Origin: Sphaerisporangium sp. TRM90804
GTDB taxonomy: Bacteria; Actinomycetota; Actinomycetes; Streptosporangiales; Streptosporangiaceae
Length of the DNA stretch: 64,000 nucleotides
Assembly (NCBI RefSeq): GCF_029846175.1
Contig: NZ_JARWAC010000004.1
Coordinates: 372,001 to 436,000 of the forward strand
Direction of reading: 5' to 3'
Shown: piece by piece, positions 30,934 to 33,334 of the stretch
Numbering within the stretch: position 1 is the stretch's first letter
Layout of the letters: every line of letters begins with the position of its first letter
Notes under the pieces: generated by a model
What the model was told of the DNA's origin: nothing
The model's database searches: none
What the model saw: the letters and a program-made list of their open reading frames with translations, nothing else
Made by a program: the position numbers and the translations under genes

Positions 30934-32532
30934 TCACCGGGCCGCCATTATCTTCATGACGGCCGCCACCCGTGACGAGACACCGAGCTTGGTGAAGATA
31001 CGCGAGAGGTGGTTCCGAACCGTACTGACGGAGAGGTACAGCGCCTCGGCCATCTCGCGGTCGCTGTACCCCTTCGTCATCAGCATCGCGACCTCCACCT
31101 CACGGGACGTCAGTCCCAGCAGGCCCGACTTGACGCCCCAGTCGGACGGGAAGGCGACCCACCCGTCGAGGTTGCCTTCCTTCACACCGATACTCATCGG
31201 CGTGAATGCGGAGCCGGGCAGGCCCTCGTACTGGGTGGAGAAGCTCTCCTCGTAGAGGTCGTTGGAGACGATCAGGCCAAGGGAGGCGGGCCTCGCCGAG
31301 AAGGCCGACCTGAACTCGTCGGCGTCGAGCATCCTGAAGGCGTTGACGATGGCGCGCCCGGTCATGCCGTTGGCGTCCGTGTGCACCACCCCCACGTCGA
31401 TCGCCATGCGCAGGCGAATCCGTGCCCGTTCTGAGGAGGTCTGGTTGTGCTGCCGCAGGTGGCCGAGGAGCCGGTCGACCAAGGCGGTGATCGTGAGCGG
31501 GTCCACGCGCGCGGAGTCGAGGACGACGACGGCGCCGTCCCCCTGGTCCTGGACGATGGCGCCGTCCCAGCCGAGGCCCACCTCGTCGAACGAGCGGCGC
31601 AGCATTCGGTACAACGCGTCACGGATGTGCAGTTGCACGGCGTCGGCGCGGCTGCTGTATTCGAAGACGTCCACCGCGATCACCACGCTGCGGCCGGCGA
31701 CGGAGGGAACCTCCCGGAGGTCGCCGCCCGCCACCCACTTCGTCCCGCGCTCCGCACTGTCACCCTCTGCTGTGCCGGGCTCGTATCCGGAGAACGGAAT
31801 GTCCACGTACCCCGCCGGCACCAGTTCCTCGGGTGTTAGTCGCGCCACCTGACGCAGCGCCTCGACATCGGCGAGCGTGACACGACCGCGACCAGTGCCG
31901 ACCACACCCGCTTCGCGTAGTGAGCGCAGGGCTCGGGCGACCGAGGGCAGCGAGGAGTCGGTCAGACCGGCGAGGTGGGACTGGGTCAACGGGAAGGGGA
32001 TCTCGGCGACGCCGTCCGCCGGGCCGTGGCGGGCCGCCAGCAGAGCCAGTGTCGCGGCCAGACGTTCCCTGGCGTCGCCCGAGGCGTTCAACTTCGTTCG
32101 CCGGTCGGCCTCGTCGAGGCGGAACTGCAGTACCTGCCACAACGCCAGCCAGGCTGTTGCACTGCGTCGCAGGAGGTCGATGAACCGGGTGACCGGGACC
32201 AGCAGGGCGCTCACGTCGGTGAGCGTCCTGCTGGTCTCCCGGATCACTCCCGGCCGGTTCAGGGGCGCCACCGCCGATTCCCCCACCAGGTCACCCGGCC
32301 CGTACACCCGCAGCACGGACTCGACGCCCTCGCGGCCGGCGGCGGCCAGGGCCCACCCGCTGCGGAGGATCAGCACGTGGCCGGTGACGGCCCCTTCGCT
32401 CATGAGCACGTCCCCGGCCTTGTAGAGGGCCGGGGCCGACATCGACATGAGGGCTACCCGGGCGTTCGGCGACAGCAGGGTCAGAAAACTGTCGCGCCGA
32501 ACCCCGCCCTGAACGCCCGGGCGCCCGCTCAC
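30934..32532 (-). CDS. Three-domain regulator: CRP-like sensor, class III cyclase-like domain, LuxR HTH
   Basis: 532 residues from GTG 32532. Residues 15-130 are a cyclic-nucleotide-binding domain (KAGDVLMSEGAVTGHVLIL, VYGPGDLVGE). Residues 180-235 are a CRP-type winged helix (PLTQSHLAGLTDSSLPSVARALRSLREAGVV). Residues 285-430 resemble a class III nucleotide cyclase: VIAVDVFEYSSR with Asp288, QDQGDGAVVVL with Asp341, and GRAIVNAFRML; the substrate-specifying residues are not conserved. Residues 473-530 are a LuxR/GerE HTH (LTSREVEVAMLMTKGYSDREMAE). It thus carries two DNA-binding domains around a nucleotide domain. Start overlaps the stop of a small membrane protein gene by four bases (GTGA), so both are made together. 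The targets are unknown. Confidence 0.82.
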   Translation of the reverse strand: MSGRPGVQGGVRRDSFLTLLSPNARVALMSMSAPALYKAGDVLMSEGAVTGHVLILRSGWALAAAGREGVESVLRVYGPGDLVGESAVAPLNRPGVIRETSRTLTDVSALLVPVTRFIDLLRRSATAWLALWQVLQFRLDEADRRTKLNASGDARERLAATLALLAARHGPADGVAEIPFPLTQSHLAGLTDSSLPSVARALRSLREAGVVGTGRGRVTLADVEALRQVARLTPEELVPAGYVDIPFSGYEPGTAEGDSAERGTKWVAGGDLREVPSVAGRSVVIAVDVFEYSSRADAVQLHIRDALYRMLRRSFDEVGLGWDGAIVQDQGDGAVVVLDSARVDPLTITALVDRLLGHLRQHNQTSSERARIRLRMAIDVGVVHTDANGMTGRAIVNAFRMLDADEFRSAFSARPASLGLIVSNDLYEESFSTQYEGLPGSAFTPMSIGVKEGNLDGWVAFPSDWGVKSGLLGLTSREVEVAMLMTKGYSDREMAEALYLSVSTVRNHLSRIFTKLGVSSRVAAVMKIMAAR

Positions 32533-32720
32533 GCGCCGAAGACCGCGTACAGCACGGCGGGCAGGGCTACGAGGATCGGCGCCAGTGAGGCGATGATCAC
32601 GGCCGGCCTCGTCCGCTCGGAACGCGTGACGATATAACCGACCAGGAAGAACAGCGAGAGACAGATGACCACGATGCCTAAAACAGGCACGACGGAATCA
32701 ACCAGTTGGGCGGACCACAT
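32529..32720 (-). CDS. Small two-helix membrane protein coupled to the three-domain regulator
   Basis: 63 residues from ATG 32720; AAGGAG lies about 11 bases upstream. It has two hydrophobic helices (about 10-30, VVPVLGIVVICLSLFFLVGY, and 41-61, PAVIIASLAPILVALPAVLY) joined by a short basic loop TRSERTR. It is the first gene of a two-gene unit, and its TGA overlaps the regulator GTG by four bases. This arrangement suggests the membrane protein passes a signal to, or tethers, the regulator. I know no named family. Confidence 0.7.
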   Translation of the reverse strand: MWSAQLVDSVVPVLGIVVICLSLFFLVGYIVTRSERTRPAVIIASLAPILVALPAVLYAVFGA

Positions 32721-32898
32721 GGGACGTCGGCTCCTTCACGGTGTTCGGCTGGGATCTGGACTTGCCCGCCGCGGGAGCCGGTAGGGACCGGGAATTGTGC
32801 TGTCGAAGTCCGGTCCGTCACCTCGCCGACAGCGAGTAACAAAGACGGTATCCGCATCGGAGAGTTAAAACCAGTGCACCCAGAGCGCATGAAAAGGC

Positions 32899-32932
32899 GG
32901 GCCCCCTCGGACTTCGACCTCCGAGGGGCCCC
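32899..32932 (-). terminator. 12-bp hairpin with T-tract on the minus strand
   Basis: GGGCCCCCTCGG and CCGAGGGGCCCC pair with one mismatch across a 10-nt loop. Read leftwards it is followed by GCCTTTTC, so it looks like an intrinsic terminator for leftward transcripts. Confidence 0.6.
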
Positions 32933-33176
32933 ACCTGGGCAGACGCCAGATCCCAGCCAGGACGCCAACGTCTGTAGTCCGAGTTAACCGCGACGCCGCT
33001 CCGCTCTCCATATCAGATGACATCATTGGAGGCTCTTATGCATCGGCGATTGTCAAATAGTTGAACGAAGCGGGGACTGTGCACACGTGGTCGACAGGGA
33101 TACCCCGCGAGATGACGGCCGGCGCCCGCGTCACCGAAAGCCCCCGAGTCCGGCAGGGCCCGCACAGGGCCGTGCC

Positions 33177-33207
33177 CCCGGAGGAGAGGGGATTCCTCTC
33201 CTCCGGG
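33177..33207 (-). terminator. 13-bp perfect hairpin after the GH87 gene
   Basis: CCCGGAGGAGAGG / CCTCTCCTCCGGG with 5-nt loop GGATT, about 130 bp beyond the GH87 stop. Confidence 0.6.
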
Positions 33208-33334
33208 AGCGTTGGCGCCGGGCCAGTCCAGGTTGGCCCGGGTCTTTGGGGGGGCGGCACGTGGCGGGCCGGGGGGAGGGCCTCGGGGGCGGGTGCGTCC
33301 TGCCGTCCCCGAGGGCCCGGTCCGCGTCCCCGGG

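Follow-up and report, generated by a model that had tools for sequence, protein, structure and literature searches.

Mycobacterial mclx proteins, in which a cyclase domain and a LuxR helix-turn-helix share one chain, carry an ATPase between the two and are not known to have a CRP domain. Among them, Rv0386, Rv1358 and Rv2488c are cyclase-LuxR proteins, and Mclx2 and Mclx3, which lack some catalytic residues, are suggested in the available part of their description to be nucleotide-responsive regulators (PMC4452763). The DUF2652 cyclase-like proteins are divergent soluble class III relatives, whose mycobacterial members keep the Arg with the Asn replaced, and the accessible text on them also records active cyclases that lack the transition-state Asn (PMC4886424). 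The substrate residues of the Pycsar cyclase PycC are named in the accessible portion of PMC11224242, and Streptomyces is credited, in the available excerpt, with a single adenylyl cyclase (PMC2447327). The actinobacterial conflict systems of Kaur et al. 2020 hold cyclases together with NTPase, Band 7 and TPR parts, some of the cyclases being inactive and a CRP-like factor being linked to some of the systems; neighbours similar to these were found in the present work, and the available part of that paper makes no mention of a CRP-cyclase-LuxR protein or of the gene pair described below (PMC7159879).

The locus analysed here lies in a window of 64,000 nucleotides from Sphaerisporangium sp. TRM90804 and consists of a regulator gene and, overlapping its start, the gene of a small membrane protein that we call SM (Table 1). 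The preliminary description had read the regulator as a CRP sensor, a cyclase-like domain and a LuxR helix-turn-helix in one protein, with a GTGA overlap to a 63-residue membrane gene; Pfam, profile and fold searches confirmed that build, and the overlap is present in the sequence. What we have, then, is a set of known domains in a new arrangement, with a small unnamed partner family. The protein belongs to CRP/FNR by PF00027 (45.4 bits, cut-off 27.5) and PF13545 (50.4, cut-off 27), with mycobacterial CRP-type 3h3u (9.4e-9) as a PDB match, and to LuxR/GerE by GerE (51.9 bits, cut-off 23.5). With the CRP/FNR factors it shares the cyclic-nucleotide-binding roll and the Crp winged helix, but it differs from them in an out-of-place Arg in the phosphate cassette, in the added cyclase fold and LuxR domain, and in the overlapping gene of a two-helix membrane partner. 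With the mclx proteins it shares a cyclase domain and a LuxR helix-turn-helix in one chain; unlike them it shows no ATPase family in the Pfam scan, residues 465-474 forming a short join, and its cyclase domain comes from a family with no Pfam match. A full-length model (mean pLDDT 82.9, pTM only 0.50) is confident for the CRP, middle and LuxR parts each, but not for their mutual arrangement. The flanking genes are an MFS-like gene on the opposite strand and a large upstream gene, a secreted enzyme by eye. In the stretch upstream of SM the promoter-site scan found no sigma-70-like consensus site, and the inverted repeats are GC-rich, with no tie to the regulator; terminator-like sites numbered 1 against 0.7 expected.

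Table 1. Features of the SM-regulator locus, in positions of the window
Feature	Position	Strand	Basis
532-aa regulator, CRP - cyclase fold - LuxR	30934..32532	-	ORF, Pfam, structure models
SM, 63-aa two-helix membrane protein	32529..32720	-	ORF and 12 homologues aligned
GTGA overlap, regulator start GTG and SM stop TGA	32529..32532	-	sequence
Intergenic stretch upstream of SM, presumed promoter region	32721..33334	-	site and inverted-repeat scans
CRP-type cyclic-nucleotide-binding fold, residues 37-123	32164..32424	-	Pfam PF00027 (cNMP_binding) 7.9e-12
Phosphate-binding cassette, residues 78-100 (GPGDLVGESAVAPLNRPGVIRET)	32233..32301	-	E85 kept, Ile at Arg column, Arg one residue later
Crp-type winged helix (HTH_Crp_2), residues 156-228	31849..32067	-	Pfam PF13545 2.2e-13
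Low-confidence linker, residues 241-278	31699..31812	-	pLDDT <50, full-length model
Class III cyclase-fold domain, residues 281-465	31138..31692	-	profile match, model, fold search
D288, first metal Asp	31669..31671	-	D in 29/30 clade members, 35/36 others, one gap
D332, second metal Asp (QGDG)	31537..31539	-	D in 30/30 clade members, 33/36 others
Q328 (clade: Glu in 28/30); Q330 (clade: Arg in 29/30)	Q328 = 31549..31551	-	column counts
V396 at transition-state Asn column	31345..31347	-	Asn in 16/30 clade members
R400, transition-state Arg column	31333..31335	-	Arg in 29/30 clade members
LuxR/GerE helix-turn-helix, residues 474-526	30955..31113	-	Pfam PF00196 5.8e-14

Taken alone, the middle domain matches no family in Pfam, NCBIfam or PADLOC. 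When 38 of its relatives were run against Pfam, a single one reached PF00211, at E 0.048, and none matched DUF2652, which differs moreover in being single-domain and a separate Pfam family. A profile of the 38 run against the PDB found 3mr7 (6.4e-7), the natriuretic peptide receptor (5e-6) and Ma1120 (7.5e-6); in the best match shown, the two sets of metal Asp positions line up. The alignment to class III cyclases on which the preliminary description had staked its reading was thus obtained. The predicted domain (mean pLDDT 92.2) gave a Foldseek match at E 1.5e-9 and, in a fold search, Ma1120 as the best among the matches listed (Z 16.8, rmsd 2.2 over 155 residues), together with the uridylate cyclases AnPycC (8jsz, Z 15.4) and BcPycC (7r65, Z 15.0). 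The fold is that of a class III cyclase, as in Pycsar, and both metal Asp are there; the first is residue 288, as proposed earlier, but the second is D332 of the QGDG motif and not residue 341. The earlier remark that the usual specificity residues are gone holds up, in that Q328 and Q330 replace the Glu/Arg pair of the clade and neither of the canonical base-selecting residues, Lys or Glu, stands before GD. Of the class III transition-state pair, the Arg is present and the Asn is not, Val standing at the position that we equate with it from the class III motif. K451 is kept, the clade having Lys there in 28 of its 30 other members. A tree built from 67 middle domains puts the window's own in the basal position of a 31-member clade (SH-like support 0.981), which takes in all seven CRP-fused domains and the LuxR-fused one. 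Set against the 30 other members of this clade, its metal- and phosphate-side residues are retained and its base-side residues are gone, and because of that split the domain may well bind an NTP, with turnover doubtful.

In the CRP part the Arg column is Ile, which puts it outside the cNMP-binding subset defined by the acid and the Arg of the phosphate cassette; weak cNMP binding is nonetheless possible, since the acid is kept and an Arg stands one residue from the expected place. In column counts with identical domains merged and partial matches dropped, both residues are kept in all 29 CRPs that lie beside a separate cyclase-like gene, in each of the 3 CRP-cyclase fusions lacking SM that got through the length filter, and in 18 of 21 CRPs with neither neighbour. 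Among 22 SM-linked CRPs, 8 have both, 12 are without the Arg, 12 without the acid and 14 without at least one; Arg is kept in 10 of these 22 as against 29 of 29 cyclase-adjacent CRPs (Fisher p 4e-6). Since 8 of the 22 keep the acid and the Arg, loss of cNMP binding is not general among SM-linked CRPs. The CRPs of loci L138 and L145 lack both residues, and those of L134 and L127 have both. In a CRP tree the window's domain clusters with the SM-linked L138 and L145 (SH-like support 0.893), and the next node (0.846) adds the CRP of L134 and five CRPs without SM. By its cassette residues, then, the window's CRP resembles the SM-linked group and not the cyclase-linked group, despite its own cyclase fold.

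This bears on the reading in which the protein is a feedback loop in itself, the cyclase fold making the cNMP that the CRP part of the same chain senses and SM merely bringing the protein to the membrane. We regard it as quite unlikely, although it would account for the two metal Asp, the transition-state Arg and K451, and for the frequency with which CRP and cyclase fold are fused or neighbours (36 fused and 11 directly after a CRP gene, with 35 neither and 1 LuxR-fused, among 83 domains at the best 80 named loci, which are mostly from Actinomadura and Streptomyces and come from a scan biased to E-type motifs), the adjacent CRPs keeping their cNMP residues without exception. What speaks against it is found at both sites at once, namely the Ile in the Arg column of the CRP part and the absence of the E328/R330 pair and the Asn on the cyclase side. 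The earlier suggestion that the regulator could bind one nucleotide and make or sense another is weakened by the same substitutions (Ile, Q328/Q330 and V396), E85 being kept.

SM has helices at about residues 11-31 and 42-62 joined by a basic loop, TRSERTRPAV, and over 13 aligned rows, whose start codons were chosen by the analyst, the mean net charge is +2.1 for the loop versus -0.3 for the N-terminal segment, because of which the loop is probably cytoplasmic. No accepted family match was found for SM in Pfam, NCBIfam, PADLOC or PHROGs; tried as a PycTM it gave no Pfam match at cut-off, and tried as part of a known defence model it matched none in PADLOC. A first round of searching, with the window's sequence as query against 338 genomes, led to 12 homologues 26-41% identical to it. 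The profile was then made from 13 sequences picked for their resemblance to SM, whatever their neighbours, 2 of which have no CRP gene after them, and it matched at E 0.001 in 31 of 250 genomes of the family. A CRP gene lies directly downstream on the same strand in 18 of the 30 loci listed (window included), with the CRP-profile match beginning 14-157 bases past the SM stop; the fraction is 13 of 17 for the strongest loci and 10 of 20 for those not used for the profile. The chance of such adjacency would be about 8e-29 at a base rate of 1%, a rate that is assumed and not measured, for loci that are related and include near-duplicates such as L164 and L165. The other 12 SM-like loci, 4 of them among the 17 strongest, have no CRP gene downstream, and no common neighbour was found for SM-like genes without CRP (L152, L153, L159, L160, L166, L167, L169-L173); L175 is not a small gene. 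Hence the conservation of the small gene with the regulator that the preliminary description had made a touchstone holds for CRP genes as a group, but not for those 12 loci and not for the full build. In the traits that we propose for the family, the window's protein is typical: a two-helix hairpin of 50-76 aa, a PA[IV]-type end to the second helix and a CRP gene directly downstream. A search of 246 genomes of the class brought up no more small genes of the SM type; beyond two family members there were five weak matches (7e-5 to 6e-4), all in frames of at least 230 aa and taken as chance. Seven of the loci without a CRP neighbour (L166, L167, L169-L173) form a second group of about 58-aa two-helix genes that match the SM profile and have a VAYYAIRR-type first helix.

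Which part of the regulator SM goes with can be read from the other pairs, since most SM partners are CRPs without a cyclase domain. In L134, SM overlaps by TGATG the gene of a 310-aa CRP-LuxR protein that has no cyclase domain, and in L129 it precedes a protein with two CRP domains and a region that is NB-ARC-like by eye, and because of these two cases we take the partner to be the CRP part and not the cyclase domain. The simplest history is that an SM-CRP pair gained a cyclase fold and a LuxR domain, or that an SM-CRP-LuxR cassette like that of L134 took in a cyclase fold. The L134 cassette runs in the opposite orientation, flanked on one side at roughly 0.5 kb by a minor tail gene (1.4e-75), which follows a tape-measure gene (1.3e-82), and on the other by an endolysin gene (8e-42). 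An SM and CRP-LuxR cassette of this kind, inverted between minor tail and endolysin genes, spans L262:17086-18179 with L263:3579-4436 in an Actinomadura genome (genus inferred from shared contigs). As the cassette stands between phage tail and endolysin genes, it is probably prophage cargo and looks lysogenic in kind.

Our favoured reading, which we put forward tentatively, is that the two genes form a membrane-gated transcription switch of the CRP type, in which the cyclase fold serves as an NTP-binding dimeriser or switch. SM would be an integral two-helix hairpin with its short basic loop facing the cytoplasm, made together with the CRP-type factor by translational coupling, and by contact would hold or gate the regulator at the membrane. 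Since CRPs of this lineage have often lost the cNMP site, the main input to the CRP domain would be this membrane partner and not a cNMP. The window's version would have gained a cyclase fold and a LuxR domain at the CRP C-terminus; the former may bind a metal-NTP and dimerise while probably having little or no cyclase activity, and the latter would contact DNA a second time or act as the output. Release of the dimer from SM and its binding to DNA would then depend on a membrane signal and the NTP state together. Textbooks present CRP as the cyclic-nucleotide switch, and a branch with a tiny membrane protein of its own and a partly lost nucleotide site would show how that switch is re-wired to a membrane input. 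It is conceivable, if rather doubtful, that the point is a wider one: that the SM-CRP pairs make up a so far undescribed class of transcription factors from a single actinomycete family, each gated one-to-one by its membrane partner, in which a hairpin of about 60 residues replaces the cNMP as ligand of the CRP fold. The class would also travel on prophages and, by recombination with LuxR, cyclase-fold and NTPase parts, would have given rise to conflict-signalling receptors, and the window's protein would be one of these, reading a membrane event together with the NTP state.

The phage setting and the company of the cyclase family bring up another role for SM, that of a membrane effector, a pore or membrane-disturbing toxin under the regulator's control in the manner of Pycsar, with the cyclase fold sensing infection or NTP state and the CRP and LuxR domains repressing or inducing SM. 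Of 60 PycTM places listed, at least 9 have a cyclase-fold place from the corresponding list no more than 10 kb away (counted by hand), and PycTM, confirmed by Pfam, ends operons of the order CRP, cyclase-like gene, large protein and further genes in L033 (1.2e-13), L102 (5.6e-16) and L099 (7.4e-14). The inverted cassette between phage tail and lysis genes would fit such a role, as would a length that amounts to two helices. Against it, SM matches neither PycTM nor any other Pfam family at cut-off, most of the CRPs that it accompanies are without a cyclase domain, and no defence gene model in PADLOC matched SM or the cyclase domain. In the comparison with Pycsar, moreover, the relatives of the window's domain lie near PycTM genes, but the locus itself has no PycTM or PycTIR, neither SM nor the regulator matches PF18967, and the one PycTM listed for this genome is on another contig (C16). 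We keep the effector role, as unlikely, on account of the prophage case and of the Pycsar genes that accompany the cyclase family.

Among 11 genomes of the genus the ortholog search returned only the window's own protein; no second CRP-cyclase-LuxR protein was among the matches listed for 341 genomes of the family (top candidates per genome, to E about 5e-29), and no second full build was listed in 394 genomes of the class. A first pattern scan of genome contigs matched 24 stretches and 0 relatives, and a second gave no second full build among the best 80 of 338 relatives, with a pattern, ED[RQ]GDG..., that cannot match the window's QDQGDG and so could miss window-like copies. The plasmid collection held one partial relative at more than 80% coverage, from Nonomuraea, 29% identical over residues 28-462 and without LuxR; the phage collection yielded nothing beyond CRP-type matches to the CRP-LuxR protein of L134, all of them below 80% coverage. 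The parts recur, as does SM upstream of a CRP gene, but no second three-part protein was listed. In the open-access literature we found no description of the SM-CRP pair and no CRP-cyclase-LuxR protein, in agreement with the earlier statement that no system of this build has been described, which needs the qualification, from the available part of the source, that cyclase-LuxR fusions as such have been (the mycobacterial mclx proteins, PMC4452763). A one-off fusion in decay or drift, whose three-part build has no maintained function, would explain both the lack of a second copy among the matches listed for genus, family and class and the diverged active-site columns. We nevertheless think it very unlikely, in view of 532 codons that run without an internal stop and with coding-like usage, two Pfam helix-turn-helix domains well over cut-off, invariant fold residues that are kept, and the retained overlap with SM.

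The cyclase-fold family itself is common in actinomycetes and has no Pfam model: at E 1e-10 or better, at least one domain is present in 102 of 150 genomes of the window's family. It ties CRP regulators to large NTPase-like proteins and PycTM effectors, and in this way may point to a relative of Pycsar that has not been catalogued. The operons L099, L100, L101, L102, L103, L033 and L076 run from CRP through the cyclase fold, a protein of about 550-830 aa, one of about 250-350 aa and membrane proteins to PycTM, the last being assigned by position in L076, L100, L101 and L103; the large protein has weak nSTAND3 or HEAT matches in some of them (L033, L099, L102). Operons of this CRP, cyclase-fold and PycTM order are possibly such an uncatalogued relative with its own transcription factor. 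L075 encodes a 1468-aa protein of CRP, cyclase-fold, NTPase-like and TPR parts. A cyclase fold with LuxR recurs here in other contexts solely in L078/L190 of Actinomadura rubrisoli, and since L078 also has a helix-turn-helix at its N-terminus, by a weak match (HTH_31, E 0.007), this is a second case of two such domains flanking a cyclase fold. The 1036-aa protein of L086:5694-8804 carries the cyclase fold twice; in one copy the second domain is without one of the metal Asp (SGNG), and from these residues the duo is likely an active/inactive pair. In the window's own genome and two others of the genus (L095, L049, L114), a CRP and cyclase-fold pair lies divergently next to two membrane genes that look by eye like subunits of a cytochrome bd oxidase. 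Finally, in L077, L080 and L082, all from one genus, membrane genes of 65-76 aa lie just upstream of a stand-alone cyclase-fold gene, and their sequence is unlike that of SM.
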